Assembly (NCBI RefSeq): GCF_030506365.1
Contig: NZ_CP073092.1
Location: 310,001 to 374,000 of the forward strand
Length of the DNA: 64,000 nt
Reading direction: 5' to 3'
From: Corynebacterium tuberculostearicum
GTDB lineage: Bacteria; Actinomycetota; Actinomycetes; Mycobacteriales; Mycobacteriaceae
This document shows positions 55,758 to 63,985 of this stretch, one piece after another (positions within the stretch are counted from its first letter, which is position 1; the number at the start of each line of letters is the position of its first letter). The position numbers and the translations under genes were made by a program. The notes under the pieces are model-generated. The model ran no database searches, was not told the DNA's origin, and worked only from the letters and a program-made list of their open reading frames with translations.

Positions 55758-56094
55758 GTCTACGAACTATAGTTACCGCCGTCACGTAGGGTGCGGGGTT
55801 GGGGTCCTAAGCTCCGCTGGCTTCTAGGAGCAAAATACCCAGCGGGTTTCGGAGCCCCGCTGTGGACCAGTTGGATTAGTTTTTGCCGTCTCACACTCTT
55901 CACGTGGCGCAAGATGTCAGTGACCATCAGCAAGCGTCACACCACACTGAGGGATGCAACCTATGGAAACCGTCAAACGATAACACCACACTCACCACTT
56001 TCTGTAAACATAAGGCCTAGACCCCACTAGACGCGTGTAAAACAATGCTAGGAACGGCCATATTTACAGGAAACATTCTGCTCCAAAGCGGCGT
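55758..56094. other. Intergenic stretch, no gene recognised
   Basis: Contains CAGCGGG (55840-55846) and CCCGCTG (55856-55862), a short hairpin. Otherwise no ORF or known element; it marks the edge of accessory DNA. Confidence 0.4.
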
Positions 56095-56112
56095 AACAAT
56101 AGGGTGTACCCA
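56095..56112. repeat. Left imperfect inverted repeat of the MFS/TetR segment
   Basis: AACAATAGGGTGTACCCA pairs at 15 of 18 positions with the reverse complement of 58534-58551. Confidence 0.5.
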
Positions 56113-56251
56113 AATGAGCGCCACGCTCGTAGTCACTGGCCTTAGGCGCCGTGAACAGGGAGTGACGCGGATCTCTCTCGCAGTAGACATAACTACACCA
56201 TCCATCCGGTACACTTACGTTGTTCACGATTAAACGATTAAGGAGACGCGC

Positions 56252-57751
56252 ATGTCCACGATGACGAAACGGCGACGCTGGTCGCTGCTGGTGACTGTCG
56301 GAGCGGGGCTCCTACTGATCACCCTCGACAACTCGATCCTGTACACGGCATTGCCGACACTGACCGAGGACCTTCAGGCATCAAGCACCCAGAGCCTGTG
56401 GATCATCAACGCCTACCCCCTGGTGATGGCGGGCCTGCTGCTCGGTAGCGGGACCCTCGGTGATCGCATCGGCCACACGCAGATGTTCGTCGTCGGCCTG
56501 GTGATCTTCGGGTTGGCGTCCCTGCTCGCAGCGTTGGCGCCGTCGCCCGAGGTGCTGATCGGTGCACGCGCTGTGCTCGCTGTCGGTGCGGCAGCGATGA
56601 TGCCGGCAACCCTGGCACTGATCCGCACGTACTTCACGGTCGAGCGCGAGCGGAACCTCGCGATCGCGATCTGGGGCAGCCTCTCCGTGGTGGGTGCCGC
56701 GCTGGGCCCCATCCTCGGCGGAACTTTGCTCGAGAACTTCTGGTGGGGCTCGGTGTTCCTGGTGAACGTGCCCGTAGTGGCGCTGGCGCTGGTTGCTACC
56801 TGGTTGATCCGCCCGGCCAATGACCCGGATCCTTCGAAGCGCTGGGATGCCGTGTCTTCGATACTGGTGATGATCGGGCTCGTCGGAACGGTGGTGGCCA
56901 TCAAGGAGATCGGCCACGCGCCCCCGTCTGTCGCGACCATTGTTGTTGCGCTGCTCGTTGCTGCCATCGGGTTCTGGCTCTTCGTGCGCCGTCAGCGGCG
57001 CCTGGAGAATCCGCTGCTGGAGTTCTCCATCTTCCTCAACCCGGCGTTCAGTGCTGGCGTGCTCGCCGCGGCGTTCGCGATGTTCGCCATCGGTGGCATC
57101 GAGCTTGTCACCACGCAACGGTTCCAGCAGGTCGTCGGCTTCAGTCCGCTGGAGGCTGGGCTTTTGGTTGCCGTGATTGCCGTGGGCTCGTTGCCGACAG
57201 CGCTCCTGGGTGGTGCCTTCTTGCACCGTGTCGGGCTGCTCGCGCTGATCACCGGTGGTCTCGCCGTCGCCACCGGCGGCGTCGTGGTGACGGTAGTCGG
57301 GTTCCAATCATCCTTCGGCGTGCTGGTTCTCGGCCTTCTGGTGACGGGTGCCGGTCTCGGAGCTGCCCTGTCGGTCGCCTCCACCGCCATCATCGGGAAC
57401 GTGCCGGTGCGCCGTGCAGGCATGGCCGCTTCCCTCGAAGAGGTCTCCTACGAGTTCGGCAGCCTCATCGCCGTGTCCGTGCTCGGAAGCCTGCTCACGG
57501 CCATCTATACCGCCAGTGTTGTCCTCCCCAACGGCGCACCGGCGGCGGCTGGTGACGGTATCGCTGAGGCACTGGAGGCGGCGCAGGGAGACGCCGCCAT
57601 CATTCAGGCGGCCTCCACGGCCTTCGACTCCGCGTACCTCGTCGTGATGCTAGTCGTTGCCGGCGTCCTGGCAGCGGCCACTGTCATCACGGGAGTGCTG
57701 CTGCGTCGGTACCTGCCTGGCACGCAGTCGCAGCTGCACTCCGAGCACTGA
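56252..57751 (+). CDS. MFS multidrug exporter, 14-span DHA2 type
   Basis: 499 residues, about 14 spans: LDNSILYTALPTL (motif D1), GSGTLGDRIGHTQMFVVG (motif A), WGSLSVVGAALGPILGG (motif C, antiporter). Resembles QacA/SmvA/LfrA-type exporters of cationic drugs and dyes. AAGGAG lies 6 nt upstream. The TetR-type gene starts 17 bp downstream, a standard efflux-plus-regulator pair, and the two sit between inverted repeats. Confidence 0.88.
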   Translation: MSTMTKRRRWSLLVTVGAGLLLITLDNSILYTALPTLTEDLQASSTQSLWIINAYPLVMAGLLLGSGTLGDRIGHTQMFVVGLVIFGLASLLAALAPSPEVLIGARAVLAVGAAAMMPATLALIRTYFTVERERNLAIAIWGSLSVVGAALGPILGGTLLENFWWGSVFLVNVPVVALALVATWLIRPANDPDPSKRWDAVSSILVMIGLVGTVVAIKEIGHAPPSVATIVVALLVAAIGFWLFVRRQRRLENPLLEFSIFLNPAFSAGVLAAAFAMFAIGGIELVTTQRFQQVVGFSPLEAGLLVAVIAVGSLPTALLGGAFLHRVGLLALITGGLAVATGGVVVTVVGFQSSFGVLVLGLLVTGAGLGAALSVASTAIIGNVPVRRAGMAASLEEVSYEFGSLIAVSVLGSLLTAIYTASVVLPNGAPAAAGDGIAEALEAAQGDAAIIQAASTAFDSAYLVVMLVVAGVLAAATVITGVLLRRYLPGTQSQLHSEH

Positions 57752-57768
57752 CCACGAAAGGACCGCTC

Positions 57769-58341
57769 ATGCGGACCAGCAAACGAGACTCCATCCTCCA
57801 AGCCGCCCTCCACGTTGTCGAAACCGACGGCGTCACGGCCGTCACGTACGAATCGGTGGCCGCCGCCTCCGGACTCACCAAAGGTGGGCTGCTCTACCAC
57901 TTCCCCTCGAAGGACGCCCTGGTGCTCGCGCTGCACGAGCATCTTGCCGAGCGCTGGGACCACGAGATGATCAACGTCCTGGGCAAGGACCCAGACGAGG
58001 CAACGCAGGACGAGCGCGTCGCCGCCTACGCCCGCGTGAGCGCTCGCAGCGCCACTGGCCCCGAGCTGCTGTTCATGCTCGAGGCGAGCACCGACAGCGA
58101 GCTCAACAAGCCGTGGAGAAGGGTCATCTCCCGATGGATACCCGACCCTGCCGAGATTGACCCGACTGACCCTCGGGCGCTGCAGAAGATGGTCGCGTAC
58201 CTTGCCGCCGACGGACTCTGGCTTAGCGAATCCGTCGGAGCCGCCCCCCTTCCGCCCGAACTGCGCGCCGCGCTGGCAGAGCACCTCGCCCACTCCGTTG
58301 CGGACGCAGCCGGAACCTCGAGCAACGCGGCGAACCGATGA
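57769..58341 (+). CDS. TetR-family regulator
   Basis: 190 residues. HTH VTYESVAAASGLTKGGLLYHFPSK in the first 50; the rest is a helical ligand domain. Probably represses the exporter gene upstream, with which it is cotranscribed. GAAAGGA precedes the ATG. Confidence 0.88.
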   Translation: MRTSKRDSILQAALHVVETDGVTAVTYESVAAASGLTKGGLLYHFPSKDALVLALHEHLAERWDHEMINVLGKDPDEATQDERVAAYARVSARSATGPELLFMLEASTDSELNKPWRRVISRWIPDPAEIDPTDPRALQKMVAYLAADGLWLSESVGAAPLPPELRAALAEHLAHSVADAAGTSSNAANR

Positions 58342-58514
58342 GCGCATCCATCTCGCAGATCTGAACCGATCCAGGTTCGCTGCCGCTGCCTTTCGCCTTC
58401 TCAAGAGGCTGCTCGTTCGCGGCCTCGTCGAGTCAGTGCCATACAGGGGCACCCCAGCGGGACAGTTACGGCGCAGTAGTTTGCTGTTGCCAATAGGCTC
58501 GGTCTCGCCATTTT

Positions 58515-58532
58515 TGCGACACATCTGTCGCA
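58515..58532. repeat. Short palindrome
   Basis: TGCGAC-ACATCT-GTCGCA, preceded by TTTT, directly inside the right inverted repeat. Perhaps a terminator read on the minus strand or part of an element end. Confidence 0.4.
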
Positions 58533-58533
58533 C

Positions 58534-58551
58534 TGGGTGTACCCCATTGTT
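58534..58551. repeat. Right imperfect inverted repeat of the MFS/TetR segment
   Basis: TGGGTGTACCCCATTGTT, partner of 56095-56112. Confidence 0.5.
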
Positions 58552-58622
58552 TAGTAATGGTGTCCTCTACTTTGGGCGATTGCTTTCAAATGCTGGGCGC
58601 GGGGACAACAATTCTGGAAAAG

Positions 58623-59603
58623 CTAGTTTTGGATCTCTCCTTGGCGAAGCCGATCGAAGACGCTACCGGCGTAATTCTCGTCGAGGATGAAACCGTTGTC
58701 GGTTTCTTTGAGAACTCCTTCTTTGACTCTGCGATCCCACCACATGATTAAGGATGCGAGCGTGTAGCCGAGTTCGTATTTCTGACCAGGAACTATAAAT
58801 GAGTTCTTCATGAGTTCTGGGAAGGTTAGTATTTGTCCTTCTCGGCCTCCGTTGGCAAATGTTTCAGGATCGTGTTGGGGCTCAATATGCTGAACAATCC
58901 AGTACACAACGTCGTAAAAGGTTCGACTTTCAGGGCTATTCTCGGTGATTATTGGATTTAAATCTTTGGTGATGAGCTCTGTGGCCTGTTTTAAAAGCTT
59001 TTCGATTCCTGGTGTTGGAGTGGCAGATATCGCCTTTCGGAGAGGTTCAGAAAGGGATCCATATCGAACACCATTGATCCCGATGTTATCCGGCTCTGCA
59101 TCTTCAACCGTTTCTTCTTGGTCTGGGTAGGGGCCTAGCTTAGACAAGAATGCGTCGACTGATTCTGCAACGGGCATGATGATCCCATCGGGATCGGTAT
59201 CCACGTACAATACGGCGCCTTCTGGGAAATCTGGCAAGCCGTAGTTAATGACAAAGCATTGATGCATTCCGTCTTCGCTAGCAGCCAAGAGAAGGACTTC
59301 TTCGGGAATCTCCCACTCATCCATGAGGAAGGTTGCGTAGTCAATCAAATCAACATGAGCGCCATTGCTTGCTGTGCCGTTGCCGAAGATATCTTCAACA
59401 ACGACCTCCAAGGTGTCCCCATCAGGCAGGGAAATATCTGTAAGGAAGCATTTTTCTAGGTTGAGGATGCCGCCTCCAGTTTCTGAAAGCAGCATCTTGT
59501 AATCATCAGGTAGCTTTTTGCCAAGCTTGCTTTCAAATTCAAGGATGCGTTGACTGTCTGCTGGCTGTGCAGTGTACTCAAAAAGGTTGGCGTAGTTTTT
59601 CAT
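58623..59603 (-). CDS. SUKH (SMI1/KNR4) domain immunity-type protein
   Basis: 326 residues. N-terminal SMI1/KNR4 pattern (about 14-150): ILEFESKLGKKLPDDYKMLLSETGGG, then acidic loop and GAVLYVDTDPDGIIMPVAESVDAFL. The second half (about 165-326) is unassigned. SUKH proteins protect against contact-dependent or polymorphic toxins. No toxin gene adjoins it. AAAGGA precedes the ATG. Lower G+C than the neighbours. Confidence 0.75.
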   Translation of the reverse strand: MKNYANLFEYTAQPADSQRILEFESKLGKKLPDDYKMLLSETGGGILNLEKCFLTDISLPDGDTLEVVVEDIFGNGTASNGAHVDLIDYATFLMDEWEIPEEVLLLAASEDGMHQCFVINYGLPDFPEGAVLYVDTDPDGIIMPVAESVDAFLSKLGPYPDQEETVEDAEPDNIGINGVRYGSLSEPLRKAISATPTPGIEKLLKQATELITKDLNPIITENSPESRTFYDVVYWIVQHIEPQHDPETFANGGREGQILTFPELMKNSFIVPGQKYELGYTLASLIMWWDRRVKEGVLKETDNGFILDENYAGSVFDRLRQGEIQN

Positions 59604-59685
59604 GATTGTCCTTTACGATTCGAGGGGTTTACCTCAAAGGGGCGATCAATGGTAGGAGGATCGTGAACTAGATACTGTTGACGGT

Positions 59686-60087
59686 ATGCATATTGATAGC
59701 AGTAAAAATGATAATTCTCGCGTAATTAATTTGATAGAGAGATCGGAGATGAACGGGGACCCTGGATTTGATCTATTTTCCCCTCGGCTTGAGCTGAAAG
59801 CTCTACGTGAAGCAGACCATAACTTCTTGGAATGTAGGGTGTACGGTCCGGAATTTCCAAATAAATATGTGCCTGAAAGGAGTCCGGACTGGGACACTGC
59901 CCGGACGGTAAAACAAGTCTCCGTGCCGAACGGTGCAGATTGCGATACTTGGGTAAAAGTAGCAAACACTCTGATAGATGACACCCTCGCAGAAAGTGAT
60001 GAAAAGGTTGACAGGGGGCCTGACGCCTGGGGCAGTCTTATCGAATCCCTCGAGAGTCGTGTTATTGAAAGGATTGTTGGCCGCTAG
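59686..60087 (+). CDS. Hypothetical protein, doubtful
   Basis: 133 residues, soluble, acidic and Asp/Glu-rich; no motif recognised. No good ribosome site precedes the ATG. Divergent from the SUKH gene and similarly low in G+C. Could be a remnant of a larger gene truncated by the IS1249-like insertion 140 bp downstream. Confidence 0.35.
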   Translation: MHIDSSKNDNSRVINLIERSEMNGDPGFDLFSPRLELKALREADHNFLECRVYGPEFPNKYVPERSPDWDTARTVKQVSVPNGADCDTWVKVANTLIDDTLAESDEKVDRGPDAWGSLIESLESRVIERIVGR

Positions 60088-60228
60088 GTCTCTGGCTAAG
60101 TTCTTGACTGCGGCGAATCCACCCTTTAATTCTATGTTTGCTTTCGCGCAGCACAGAGAAATCTGCCTCAGCAACGCCCCGCAGATAATCCAGATGAACT
60201 TCTAAACTTAGCCACCAGTCTCAAAGAA

Positions 60229-61613
60229 GGGTTAAGGGTCAAAAAGTGTGTCCGGAATCGCGGATTTTCACGGATTGACCTGTAGGTTTCCGGAAAGTAT
60301 ATGCTCCGGAAGCATATATCTAGCCCCCGACGGGAAATCCTCGGTGTGGCAGCCGTGATGTGCTATGCGCGGCGTGGTGTGGTGTCGCAATGTCGAAGAA
60401 CCAACCACGCTGCCACTGCGGCGGTGAAATGAAACGCAACGGCACCACCAGCAAAGGCACCACCAGATGGCGCTGCAAACAATGCGGCGCCTCCAGCGTC
60501 AAACGTCGAAACGACATCACCAACGCGGCAGTGTTCACCCAGTTCATCGAGCATTGCACCACCGCAATATCACTCGACGACCTAGCCAAACGAAACGGTG
60601 TTAGCCGCGCCACCATGAAGCGGCGCTTCAAGTGGTGCTGGCTCGTTGATGTGCCTGACCCCACCGCCGGCCACCACAAGCGGATCTACGACCAGGTATT
60701 TCTCGATGGCACCTACACCGCCGGTGGCTGCCTGATCGTCGCGGCGACCATCGACCACGTGATCGCCTGGCACTGGTGCAAACACGAAACCACCCGCGAC
60801 TACCAACTGCTGCTTGAACGCATCGAAGCCCCACTCATCGCCGTCATCGACGGCGGCCAAGGCGCATACAGCGCAATCAAAAAGTGCTGGCCGACTACGA
60901 AAATTCAACGCTGCCTCGTCCACGCCCAACGCGTGGTCCGCCGCTACACCACCACCAACCCACGCACCGATGCCGGGCGCACCATCTACCGACTTGCGCT
61001 GAAACTGACCCGGATCACCACACTGGATGAAGCCGCCGCGTGGGGTGTGCAACTGCACGAGTTTTCAACGATCTACCGGGAATGGATGAACGAGAAAACC
61101 ATGATCAAAGACCCCAAAACAGGTGCATGGACCCGCGTGTGGACCCACCACAACGTGCGCAAGGCCTACAACAGCCTCAACCATCTTTGGCGGTCCGAGA
61201 TGCTGTTTGTCTACCTCAACCCGCCAGCAGGAGTCCTTGCGCCCGAGCGGATCAAATCCACCACCAACAGCTTAGAAGGCGGCATCAACGCCCAGCTCAA
61301 ACTGCTCGCCAGAACCCACCGCGGCAGATCAGGCGAACGACAACGCCGCATGCTGGATTGGTGGCTCTACTTAAAAACGGAACTGCCTGACGATCCAGTA
61401 CGAATCGCCAGGCAGTCCGACTGGGGCCAGGGCCAACTCGCCAAAGTATCCACCCTGACCCAAACCGAGAACCAAGCCGACCACGAAACAGGACGCCCGG
61501 CCCTCTACGACAACGCTATCGACACCGACTACACCCACTCAATCGGCATTCAAAAAGGCCAAATCTAACCCCCGCGACACGCCGAGCCAGACACACATTT
61601 TGACCCTTAACCC
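60229..61613 (+). mobile_element. IS1249-like insertion sequence (IS256 family)
   Basis: 1385 bp between inverted repeats beginning GGGTTAAGGGTCAAAA (60229-60252 and 61590-61613; 23 of 24 positions match). Encodes one transposase. The 8 bp on each side (TCAAAGAA and ACTTGCTT) are not a duplication, so one flank has probably been rearranged. Confidence 0.88.
60390..61568 (+). CDS. IS1249-type transposase
   Basis: About 392 residues. N-terminal zinc-finger pairs CHCGGEMKRNG and CKQCGAS, HTH segment DLAKRNGVSRATMKRRF, then a DDE-type core with VFLDGTYT, AVIDGGQGAYSAIK, a CLVHAQRVVRRY helix and NSLEGGINAQLK (acidic third residue). Looks intact. ATG 60390 (MSKNQPRCHCGG) fits; upstream ATG 60360 adds non-family residues. 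Confidence 0.9.
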   Translation: MSKNQPRCHCGGEMKRNGTTSKGTTRWRCKQCGASSVKRRNDITNAAVFTQFIEHCTTAISLDDLAKRNGVSRATMKRRFKWCWLVDVPDPTAGHHKRIYDQVFLDGTYTAGGCLIVAATIDHVIAWHWCKHETTRDYQLLLERIEAPLIAVIDGGQGAYSAIKKCWPTTKIQRCLVHAQRVVRRYTTTNPRTDAGRTIYRLALKLTRITTLDEAAAWGVQLHEFSTIYREWMNEKTMIKDPKTGAWTRVWTHHNVRKAYNSLNHLWRSEMLFVYLNPPAGVLAPERIKSTTNSLEGGINAQLKLLARTHRGRSGERQRRMLDWWLYLKTELPDDPVRIARQSDWGQGQLAKVSTLTQTENQADHETGRPALYDNAIDTDYTHSIGIQKGQI

Positions 61614-61785
61614 ACTTGCTTTGGACATAAAAAAGCTCCCAGGCATCCCCGGGAGCTTGTCTCGGGCATCCCCGAGACGTCGGAATAACCGAAAGGAATC
61701 AGTTAAACACTCGACACGATTGATCGTAGAAAACGTAGCCGAAAAAAGCAACAAACTCCCACGTGAGACGTAAAATCAAAGCTCC
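61569..61785. other. IS1249 right end and two hairpins
   Basis: Two hairpins follow the IS: AAGCTCCC/GGGAGCTT (61633-61658) and GTCTCGGG-CATC-CCCGAGAC (61659-61678). Six A before the first give it a T run on the minus strand, so it can terminate leftward transcripts. Their loops share GGCATCCCC. Confidence 0.55.
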
Positions 61786-61793
61786 CAATTAAA

Positions 61794-61847
61794 CATATGC
61801 CAAGACATATGTTTAAGCATATGGCTTAACATATGGCAGAACATATG
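61794..61847. repeat. Five CATATG iterons at exact 12-bp spacing (parS/operator candidate)
   Basis: CATATG starts at 61794, 61806, 61818, 61830 and 61842. Intervening hexamers vary (such as CCAAGA, TTTAAG, GCTTAA, GCAGAA). A -10-like TAATAT (61849-61854) follows directly, 62 bp before parA. This looks like the centromere and operator of the plasmid-type partition pair that follows. Confidence 0.7.
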
Positions 61848-61915
61848 CTAATATGAAACCCACAGCTCAAAGGACACTTTGAGAACACAACACTCGACAC
61901 CTAAAAGGAGCAGCC

Positions 61916-62542
61916 ATGCCCGTAATTTCCTGCCTCAACGCCAAAGGCGGAACCGGAAAAACCACCAGCGCAATCAACCTCGCCGCCGTCGCCGCCTACC
62001 GTGGATACACCGTCCACGTCCTCGACGCCGACGCCGAACAAGGCACCGCCTCCGAATGGATCGAATACGCCAACGACGCCTTCGAAGAAAACCCCAACGC
62101 CCCCCACGTTGACGTCGAAGTCGAAGCCGTCAACCGAGGAATCCTCGCGCGCAAGGTAAAAAAATACAGCGACGACCTTGTCATCATCGACGGCCCACCC
62201 AGCAATCACAGCATGTCTGAACTCATCATCGAAAACTCAGACTTCGTCGTCATTCCCACCACCGGCACCCACACGGATATGGCACAAACCTGGAAAATCA
62301 TCGACGTCATTCCAGAAGGCAAACACTACGCCGTACTGCCCACCATCTGGGACAAGCGCAAAAGCACTGCCGACCGCGCCCGGAAAGTCCTTGAAGACGA
62401 AGGAATCCCAGTCATTTGGCCCGGCGTAGAATCCCGCGCCTACTTCGACCGCCAATTCGGACACTGGCCCCGCAACAGCGCCAAAGAACTACACGGCTAT
62501 CCCGCAATCTTTGACAAAATCATCGCCCACATCACCAACTAA
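61916..62542 (+). CDS. Plasmid-type ParA ATPase (short, type Ib-like)
   Basis: 208 residues, deviant Walker A KGGTGKTTSAINLA at residues 10-23, LDADAEQGTASEW and LVIIDGPPSNHS. Lacks the N-terminal HTH of type Ia ParA. Unlike the chromosomal ParA at 47498-48346. AAAAGGAGCAGCC precedes the ATG. Likely moves iteron-bound partner complexes. Confidence 0.88.
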   Translation: MPVISCLNAKGGTGKTTSAINLAAVAAYRGYTVHVLDADAEQGTASEWIEYANDAFEENPNAPHVDVEVEAVNRGILARKVKKYSDDLVIIDGPPSNHSMSELIIENSDFVVIPTTGTHTDMAQTWKIIDVIPEGKHYAVLPTIWDKRKSTADRARKVLEDEGIPVIWPGVESRAYFDRQFGHWPRNSAKELHGYPAIFDKIIAHITN

Positions 62543-62565
62543 CCACACCTTAAAAAGGAGCAACC

Positions 62566-62994
62566 ATGAACGACACCCCAGGACTGGCACGCCCGAAAAA
62601 GAAGCAAACCGACGCCCAAGGAAAACCCACCCTCACCAAAGACACCGGACTTAATACCACCAAGGTCACAAAGGCCACCAAGAAAGAAAAGCCCCACCGC
62701 ACCACCGTCAACCTGCCCTACTCCATCTACAAAGAACTACGCAGAAACTGGGCAGAAACCAGCACCCCTATCTACCGCCAACTTCTAGAAGCCTGGGAAC
62801 TAATCACCGACCACGGCGCGGACTACCAGCCCGCAGACGCGACCTACAACACCGACGAGCTCACCCGCACCACCACCGTCTACATCCCCAAAGACACCCT
62901 GAAGGCCATGCAAAAAATCCGCAGCAAGTATGGAGCCTCCATCGCCGACCAGCTCATCTCCTCCTGGGCTCAACAAACCGGCTGGGAAGGATAA
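62566..62994 (+). CDS. Small basic protein, probable ParB-like partner
   Basis: 142 residues. Lys/Thr-rich N-terminus (about 1-45), then HRTTVNLPYSIYKELRRNWAE, which fits a ribbon-helix-helix beta strand and helix, and a second similar unit RTTTVYIPKDTLKAMQKIRSKYG with helix ADQLISSWAQQ. It may thus contain two RHH-like halves. It directly follows the short ParA (23 bp, AAAAAGGAGCAACC). Confidence 0.65.
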   Translation: MNDTPGLARPKKKQTDAQGKPTLTKDTGLNTTKVTKATKKEKPHRTTVNLPYSIYKELRRNWAETSTPIYRQLLEAWELITDHGADYQPADATYNTDELTRTTTVYIPKDTLKAMQKIRSKYGASIADQLISSWAQQTGWEG

Positions 62995-63019
62995 CCACCC
63001 GCGACACCAAGGAGCCACC

Positions 63020-63550
63020 ATGTCCCACGAGACTCCCCACATCGCCGACCGCGCAGACAACGACCCGCGCGAAGACCCCGAAGCGCTACTTATCGCAGCC
63101 CTGCTCTGGAACCGCGACACCACCCAAGCGGTAAACCTGACACAAACACTCACCCCCGCCGACTTCTACTCCACCGACTACGCCGCAATCTTTGCCACCA
63201 TCAGCCAACAACTCAAAAGCGGCAGACCCTACGACCCCGCCAGCGTGCGCTCAGCCCTGTACGCCGAAGGCGACCAATCCGGCATACTCACCGATAACAT
63301 CGACGGACTTATCACCATGCTCACCAACCTAGAGCACATACCGCCGAAAATAACCGACTACGCCGAAGCCGTAGCCTCTAACTCGTATCGCCGCCAATAC
63401 CGCAACATGGTCGAACGCCTTAGCCGCCAGGCGCATACCGCACCAGAAAAAGACCTCTACCCACTGCTAGTAAAAGAAGGTAAAAAACAACGCCGCATTA
63501 AAGACCGCTACTACCGCAACCACAAAGACACCCCGCAAGAGCGCCACTAA
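63020..63550 (+). CDS. DnaB N-terminal-domain-like protein
   Basis: About 176 residues: EALLIAALLWNRDTTQAVNLTQTLTPADFYSTDYAAIFATI resembles the N-terminal domain of replicative helicase DnaB (which binds primase). The ATPase domain is absent, and a basic tail (KKQRRIKDRYYRNHKD) ends it. Could be an accessory factor of a plasmid or phage replicon. AAGGAG 6 nt before ATG 63020. Confidence 0.7.
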   Translation: MSHETPHIADRADNDPREDPEALLIAALLWNRDTTQAVNLTQTLTPADFYSTDYAAIFATISQQLKSGRPYDPASVRSALYAEGDQSGILTDNIDGLITMLTNLEHIPPKITDYAEAVASNSYRRQYRNMVERLSRQAHTAPEKDLYPLLVKEGKKQRRIKDRYYRNHKDTPQERH

Positions 63551-63685
63551 ACCACACCCATCTCACGGTGGCCTTCGCTCCAATTTCCTCGCTTCGCTGC
63601 GGGAATTTCCACGGGACCTGACCCCTGTTTGGTAGACACCTGATATCCAGCCCGGTTGGGTTGGGAAGAAAGGTAATCTACCACC

Positions 63686-63985
63686 ATGCCTAGGTATTCC
63701 GAACAGTTCAAACGTGATGCTGTGGCCCTCTATGAAAACAATGAGGACCTTTCACTTCACGCGGCTTCAGCAGAGCTTGGAGTCAATCGTTCCTCGCTTT
63801 TCTCCTGGCTTCAGCAATACGGCACCGGCAAACGTGCCCGCACGAAGGCCATGCGCGACAACGCCAAGGAGACGACTGATTCCGAGCGAATCCGCCAGCT
63901 AGAAAAAGAGAACGCGAAGCTGCGCGAAGAACGCGATATTCTGCGCAAGGCCGCGAAATATTTTGCCGAAGAGACACGCTGGTGA
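63686..63985 (+). CDS. IS3-family transposase OrfA
   Basis: 99 residues: HTH (YSEQFKRDAVALYENN, AASAELGVNRSSLFSWLQQYG) and a coiled coil (IRQLEKENAKLREERDILRKAAKYF). Different group from the IS3 element at 18217-19539. Confidence 0.9.
   Translation: MPRYSEQFKRDAVALYENNEDLSLHAASAELGVNRSSLFSWLQQYGTGKRARTKAMRDNAKETTDSERIRQLEKENAKLREERDILRKAAKYFAEETRW

Follow-up and report, generated by a model that had tools for sequence, protein, structure and literature searches.

An array of five CATATG palindromes at exact 12-bp steps, lying in front of a short parA gene, raises the question of which protein reads it and what it does there. The array belongs to the window, i.e., the whole stretch of 64,000 nucleotides of Corynebacterium tuberculostearicum DNA that was analysed, itself part of a 2.47-Mb single-contig genome (G000:C1). 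The first-pass annotation, made from the sequence alone, had taken the array for a centromere that is also an autoregulatory operator, bound by the small protein encoded behind parA. Our analysis makes it quite likely that the locus is a type-Ib-like partition system, whose ParB, a ribbon-helix-helix (RHH) protein of a single chain, binds 12-bp arrays both as centromere and as plasmid-wide repressor; the array itself would very probably be a docking array for a two-in-one DNA-binding protein. The features of the locus are collected in Table 1.

Table 1. Features of the par locus and its surroundings (positions of the window).
Feature	Position	Strand	Basis and remarks
MFS transporter/TetR module, plasmid-derived	55962..58978		99.4% to NZ_CP067011
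IS1249 element interrupting the plasmid-derived stretch	60228..61613	+	99.9% to the pTP10 copy; NCBIfam IS1249 transposase
Two GC-rich hairpins upstream of the array	61633..61677	+	First is terminator-like on the minus strand
CATATG array, five sites, 12 bp start to start	61794..61847	+	Scan and shuffles; cores invariant among orthologues; proposed ParB-binding centromere/operator
-35 box TTAACA	61826..61831	+	Consensus match only; begins 4 nt before the fourth CATATG
-10 box TAATAT	61849..61854	+	Consensus match only; starts 7 nt downstream of the first base of the last CATATG
Likely ribosome-binding site AAAAGGAG of parA	61903..61910	+	Read from the sequence
parA, 208-aa ParA-type ATPase	61916..62542	+	Pfam, NCBIfam, nearest PDB sequence
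parB-like gene, 142 aa	62566..62994	+	AlphaFold model; fold matches
Codons of the first RHH (strand 44–50, helices 52–65 and 69–81)	62695..62808	+	AlphaFold model
Codons of the second RHH (strand 101–107, helices 109–122 and 126–138)	62866..62979	+	AlphaFold model
Third operon gene, 176 aa, DnaB-helicase N-terminal domain only	63020..63550	+	Pfam DnaB, 4.2e-12

The array, its promoter and the par operon

The five sites begin at 61794, 61806, 61818, 61830 and 61842, just as the first-pass annotation had read them, and are parted by 6-bp spacers (ccaaga, tttaag, gcttaa, gcagaa). CATATG as such is not over-represented in the window (8 copies against 10.6 expected, the three outside the array being isolated singles), so that the signal lies in the regular arrangement. 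In 100 dinucleotide shuffles of the window, at least three palindromic hexamers at one step (7–30 bp) came up with a mean of 0.01 per shuffle and equal-step chains of at least four never, while the real window has one such chain, of five; by this control, plain coincidence is ruled out as the origin of the array. At 10.5 bp per turn, a step of 12 bp corresponds to 1.14 turns, i.e., about 51 degrees per neighbour and about 206 degrees over the five sites, in agreement with the slow winding round the helix that had been suggested.

The downstream end of the array coincides with a promoter-like site (TTAACA-17-TAATAT, 61826–61854, with a 17-bp spacer), which overlaps the last two CATATG sites: the -35 box is inside the array, the array covers this box together with nearly all of the promoter spacer, and the -10 box, also anticipated, comes just behind it. 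One promoter-like site was found in 61500–63700 against 0.6 expected. Upstream of the array the two hairpins are adjacent (z -4.7 for 61625–61700); the stem of the first is kept, with changed paired bases, in another par locus (L017), and hairpins of similar look were seen by eye in pCstat1.

The gene behind the array encodes, as had been proposed, a short ParA, without an N-terminal helix-turn-helix (HTH) motif and with the deviant Walker A motif KGGTGKTT near its N-terminus; a short ParA lacking HTH and carrying KGGxxK[T/S] is a feature of type Ib systems. The protein matches Pfam AAA_31 (3.4e-15) and NCBIfam ParA_partition (4.6e-32; 111 bits, under the cut-off of 180), its nearest sequence in the PDB is ParF (4dzz), and its likeness to the NCBIfam VirC1 model is weak (38.7 bits, the cut-off being 313).

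As to the 142-aa protein encoded next, AlphaFold predicts a basic disordered N-terminus followed by two RHH motifs in one chain, which accords with the two RHH-like halves surmised earlier; two such motifs are likewise predicted for the ParB of the L020 type, the RHH models being of moderate confidence (five models, mean pLDDT 45–70 and 43–64). The fold of the 142-aa model is matched by a chain of the F relaxosome (TraY, the best match), by single-chain Arc and by VirC2, with no Foldseek match having E below 0.001 and with identities to TraY of 7–10% (VIA alignments) or 13–15% (Foldseek alignments). Sequence searches against Pfam, NCBIfam and the PDB gave no RHH or ParB match for the protein, and entries of ParG and omega are absent among the matches listed in both PDB searches, which is not evidence against kinship. 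A family-level sequence search with the window ParB reached 3 of 401 genomes, namely its own genome and two with weak matches, which fall within open frames some 1,800 aa long and were taken as chance.

A small RHH protein encoded after parA is a further feature of type Ib, given here by the model without family-model support from sequence. In the N-terminal part of type Ib centromere proteins an arginine finger activates ParA; the 142-aa protein has its basic disordered tail there. The type Ib protein, however, is a homodimer with a single RHH per chain, whereas the models of two ParB types show two, and the RHH pseudo-dimer in a single chain which is thus predicted for the 142-aa protein is a feature of the TraY family. 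Since the modelled centromere protein departs from the rule of one RHH per chain, the system, which would work like type Ib partition, is best called a variant of this type and not a plain member.

The order parA, tandem-RHH gene, gene for the DnaB N-terminal domain (DnaB-N) is common to the window, L020 and L021 types, with ParA 42–43% identical; in L022 no DnaB-N gene is annotated after the ParB gene. Lone DnaB-N proteins (window 63020–63550; L002 4180–4683; L075 24057–24554) occur as two paralogues on several plasmids, one in the par operon; on window-type plasmids one lies behind another array.

Plasmid origin of the locus and array spacing among its relatives

The segment from 61604/61614 to 63613 is 98.5–99.5% identical to pTP10 of C. 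striatum and to plasmids of C. kefirresidentii (NZ_CP067011) and C. diphtheriae (OV884290), and the search for the array on corynebacterial plasmids, advised by the first-pass annotation, found it on all three. The transporter module and the par segment keep the order and orientation that they have on NZ_CP067011, with IS1249 between them. Considering this plasmid-identical par segment and the module in plasmid order within a 2.47-Mb contig, the par locus of the window is, on the grounds of sequence, a fragment of a pTP10-type corynebacterial plasmid in a chromosome, and because of this its role as a centromere may be vestigial in the window genome. Of the "plasmid-type par pair" described earlier, the kinship with plasmids holds, but the copy here is chromosomal and not on a plasmid.

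The plasmid-derived stretch as a whole (55962–63613) contains the MFS transporter, TetR, an SMI1-like gene, IS1249 and the par operon; no match to a plasmid RepA was seen within the window. Positions 374–414 kb of the contig share with the plasmid parts only the aph(3')-Ia/IS26 stretch and 844 bases of OV884290 (85%, unannotated part). The former is a 960-bp match to aph(3')-Ia/IS26 of pTP10 at G000:C1:376226–377185 (L036 2226–3185), 2.2 kb past the window, and its APH-like ORF (L036 2350–2790) is short. The C. diphtheriae plasmid has two par pairs (L003 1915–2765 and 15303–16378): a pNG2-like pair, whose ParB is small, and a window-type pair.

Against the possibility, raised earlier as an objection, that homologous par loci lack the array, a 12-bp array ends 65–83 bp before parA in all tandem-RHH par loci read (window, L001–L003, L017–L022). 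Plasmids that between them carry window-, L020-, L021- and L022-type proteins (NZ_CP067011, NZ_CP069515, NZ_CP073099 and pCstat1) were scanned for further arrays, the first without its first 2,624 bases, the second over the first 50 of 56 kb, the third completely and the fourth over the first 50 of 53 kb. On NZ_CP067011 there are five CATATG chains (at least three sites) at 12 bp and no TWGCWA chains, while NZ_CP069515 and NZ_CP073099 have four and five TWGCWA chains, respectively, at this step and no CATATG chains; among the steps 6–24 scanned on the three plasmids, only 6 (one chain) and 24 were met besides 12. If one mismatch is tolerated, three-site TTGCAA chains appear twice on pCstat1, in both cases at step 12 (of the steps 7–24 scanned), the first belonging to par and the second lying 93 bp ahead of an annotated start; a looser TWGCWA search, again with one mismatch, yields a single chain of five sites, its step being 18. 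The arrays of the TWGCWA plasmids and of pCstat1 have only three or four perfect sites, the number being three in the par array of pCstat1 and in several TWGCWA arrays. As TTGCAA is a case of TWGCWA, and as the L020 and L021 ParBs, 70% identical, share their core, comparison of these plasmids gives one clear change of core (CATATG vs. TWGCWA), not three.

The step was scored in 24 par loci: 5 of the tandem-RHH type (two of them of the window type), 15 with a small ParB of 75–98 aa, taken as single-RHH, and 4 unassigned ones (L009–L012, ParB not identified), which stay outside the count of 8 against 12 bp; L015 and L016 are outside the scoring. Four of the five tandem-RHH loci peak at 12 bp, the fifth, L020, having scores of 26 for step 6 and 25 for step 12, whereas 14 of the 15 small-ParB loci peak at 8 or 16 bp, the single miss (L033) having no clear step; the scored loci include close relatives, which makes the independent sample smaller, and one RHH per small ParB is judged by length and by eye, two of the proteins being annotated as ParG. 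Among the unassigned loci, L010 peaks at 12 with a score near noise (22).

In four orthologous array sets of 3–5 sequences each, none of the 120 core columns is variable, whereas variation occurs in 14 of 96 columns of the spacers (p 7e-6) and in 59 of 424 of the flanks; as far as such alignments tell, the array cores are under selection. A second par type, with a ParA about 30% identical and a 79-aa protein, has palindrome-rich repeats before and after the operon in L056 (15430–15560, 16435–16480; by eye).

Arrays away from the par operon

On each plasmid, between two and five arrays are found in front of gene starts. Those with CATATG cores stand before parA, a glutaredoxin/DnaB-N operon and two small-protein genes (NZ_CP067011, OV884290, BWA136 contig); the part of pTP10 that was read has three arrays, two of them ahead of gene starts and one elsewhere. 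Besides these, NZ_CP067011 has one more array and OV884290 two more, which either belong to the resolvase-side kind considered below or are not placed at a start. Each CATATG promoter array comprises four to six sites and lies 55–85 bp from the start codon. In the twelve tested, a -10-like hexamer starts 7 nt downstream of the first base of the last core; the -35 position, opening 4 nt ahead of the penultimate core, is taken by TTGCCA in nine, by TTAACA in two, as in the window, and by GGAACA in one; both hexamers are in one register in 11 of the 12 and in the window, the twelfth, the par array of L017, having the poor GGAACA. As to the TWGCWA arrays, 8 of the 10 read (one with two perfect sites) lie 55–81 bp before annotated starts, and two (L075 21180, L076 6369) are without an annotated start in reach. 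The promoter overlap which an autoregulatory operator needs is thus present and conserved, and repression would act through it. In type Ib systems the centromere protein is a repressor of its own operon.

The presence of two to five arrays before gene starts, with the CATATG ones in a fixed promoter register, would also suit operators of a plasmid-wide regulator only, the centromere lying elsewhere or partition being a side role, the more so as RHH proteins are commonly repressors. We consider this unlikely. The gene of the putative binder directly follows parA, as is normal for type Ib, the par array precedes the operon, a position typical of type Ib centromeres (PMC5016525, in part), and promoter-overlapping arrays are parS sites in pSM19035 (PMC9499535, in part).

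It is still less probable, indeed very improbable, that the protein is a TraY-like conjugation factor which, with its arrays, prepares or regulates DNA transfer and not partition. F TraY is the best fold match, ParA weakly resembles VirC1, and mobF and T4SS genes are present on NZ_CP067011 and NZ_CP069515, where arrays lie in the interval from par to mobF; however, in the scanned parts of these two plasmids no array of at least three sites lies inside the mobF/T4SS block, the tandem-RHH gene belongs to the parA operon, and the closest relative of ParA among PDB sequences is ParF. Replication iterons were rejected as the main reading, given that replication genes are found in other parts of the plasmids and that the arrays are located at promoters; chromosomal parS sites seem improbable, the arrays being unlike a single long inverted repeat.

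CATATG arrays of at least three sites occur in 17 of 242 Corynebacterium genomes, and the ParB profile search matched 7 of the 242, namely six that have a tandem-RHH type and G409, whose match is a 79-aa protein. Four of the 17 array genomes have a ParB of the window type (G000, G424, G587, G588), one of the L021 type (G541), and 12 have no profile match. A serine resolvase region, 92–100% like that of L057, lies by the array in 8 of these 12, found by protein in G514, G225, G534, G519, G412, G467 and G575 and by DNA in G233; no resolvase was found near the array in the stretches examined of G411, G355 and G507, and G518 gave only a 40% match. G541:C3 and G412:C1, probably plasmids, have CATATG arrays, a ParA and a 78–79-aa protein, with no tandem-RHH match. 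In three resolvase-side arrays, a small sample, the cores vary at 4 of 42 and the spacers at 6 of 36 positions; this would be as expected of relics, the cores being no better kept than the spacers. Four Corynebacterium genomes share, at 99.9% identity, a block of some 2.9 kb that also covers the 3-kb locus of a fifth. The block (L056 9168–9966, L057 5428–6226, equivalents in L059, L060 and L050) contains a serine resolvase gene and two CATATG arrays not at obvious promoters; the profile search found no tandem-RHH ParB in the genomes with this block.

Arrays beside a resolvase in genomes without a tandem-RHH ParB could mean that the CATATG arrays are targets of some other factor, e.g., the serine resolvase or a host protein, with ParB a bystander. 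NZ_CP069515, however, whose own arrays are TWGCWA and whose ParB is of the TWGCWA type, has a 95%-identical resolvase next to which no more than a remnant of a CATATG array survives, an argument against the resolvase itself requiring the array; in addition, core identity tracks the ParB group on the plasmids read, and we give the bystander explanation very little credit. For the ParB-less genomes themselves, another binder or relic status must be allowed, as 12 of the 17 array genomes have no ParB match and the resolvase-side cores vary no less than the spacers; such arrays may have been left from a former ParB or may be served by a ParB in trans.

At least 120 viral contigs have the three-site CATATG pattern, and 30 of the 120 listed have at least four sites; among the 17 of these 30 looked at, the array lies inside an ORF of more than 150 aa in 12 and not in 5. 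The viral 12-bp arrays (L199 1476–1541, L102 2524–2577, L130 444–533 and others) often adjoin pyrimidine- or purine-rich runs. No relative of the window ParA was found in the viral contigs, and no ParB match in the phage records. The viral arrays may be iterons of phage origins or repeats in coding sequence, and we left them aside as probably unrelated.

Proposed mechanism and comparison with known systems

Returning to partition and repression by one protein, we infer that the 142-aa protein is the centromere-binding protein of a pTP10-type plasmid, and that the two RHH motifs of its chain fold into what is usually an RHH dimer. Since one chain would then supply a two-stranded ribbon, one monomer per core would be the natural stoichiometry, each 6-bp palindrome being read via this ribbon. 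On the 12-bp array the monomers would line up as a train, each turned by the above angle to its neighbour, and this train would recruit the short ParA, probably via the basic N-terminal tail, to move the plasmid. The same train would block RNA polymerase and repress parA-parB-dnaBN, as is to be expected where the -35 box and almost the whole promoter spacer lie under an array. On whole plasmids the protein would bind the further arrays as well and repress the genes behind them, so that partition and the plasmid regulon would share one DNA code.

A wider proposal is possible, though on balance doubtful: that a class of conjugative plasmids uses a modular code with a fixed 12-bp pitch and an exchangeable core, the arrays sitting on par and establishment promoters. 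The distributed centromere would then be a switch, open on entry into a ParB-less cell and closing as ParB accumulates, exchange of the core would set incompatibility, and plasmids or chromosomal islands that have CATATG arrays but no ParB could be positioned or regulated in trans by a ParB resident in the cell. Its odds are lowered by there being only one clear core change.

In the open-access literature, covered mostly as titles and the beginnings of abstracts, none of these describes such arrays, a tandem-RHH ParB or an experiment on the system, and no open-access paper was found that combines "Corynebacterium striatum", "CATATG" and "plasmid"; in a paper on the C. striatum mobilome, with many mentions of pTP10, the words "partition" and "ParB" are absent (PMC11477358).

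Should the proposed mechanism hold, array pitch and RHH count per chain go together, 8 bp belonging to dimers of two chains and 12 bp to pseudo-dimers of one chain, a simple and testable structural rule for related corynebacterial and mycobacterial plasmids. The natural change between CATATG and TWGCWA among related ParBs would offer a system for studying the evolution of RHH specificity and plasmid incompatibility, and a single protein may serve both the passing of plasmids to daughter cells and the switching of plasmid genes. As some of the parent plasmids bear resistance genes in skin and clinical corynebacteria, knowledge of their upkeep and regulation would be of practical value.

Among the known systems, VirC2 of Agrobacterium acts near the T-DNA borders, and the VirC1/VirC2 pair is set apart by the score of ParA under the VirC1 cut-off. 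The KorB sites of RK2 regulate other plasmid genes. The same holds for the ParB sites of NAH7 (PMC12421886, in part), and both proteins resemble the one proposed here as centromere proteins with sites scattered over the plasmid (scattered O_B: PMC5016525, in part); the difference is that their sites are single longer inverted repeats (18 bp in NAH7) without tandem arrays, and that KorB has an HTH motif (PMC5016525, in part). TraY of the F relaxosome is a monomer that holds the RHH dimer fold and is bound to DNA as a train of three neighbours (PMC12117103, in part), a single-chain pseudo-dimer like the one predicted here, but it works at oriT with TraI and IHF, whereas our gene is part of a parA operon and the arrays here follow a regular 12-bp step.

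The two type Ib systems share more of the partition side. ParF/ParG of TP228 has the short ParA, to which ours is nearest in the PDB, an RHH centromere protein and an upstream array (PMC5016525, in part); ParG, however, is a single-RHH dimer, and the related corynebacterial and mycobacterial loci with ParBs of 75–98 aa have, in 14 of 15 cases, the 8- or 16-bp step described above. Delta/omega of pSM19035 has a small RHH centromere protein, a ParA partner and several promoter-overlapping arrays serving as parS and operator, with at least four contiguous repeats needed (PMC9499535, in part), a number which the CATATG promoter arrays reach but which exceeds the three perfect sites of pCstat1 and of some TWGCWA arrays. 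In omega, each chain of the homodimer has a single RHH, and the repeats bound are non-palindromic and 7 bp long; in the system considered here, two RHH motifs are predicted in each chain, and the repeats are 6-bp palindromes set at 12 bp.
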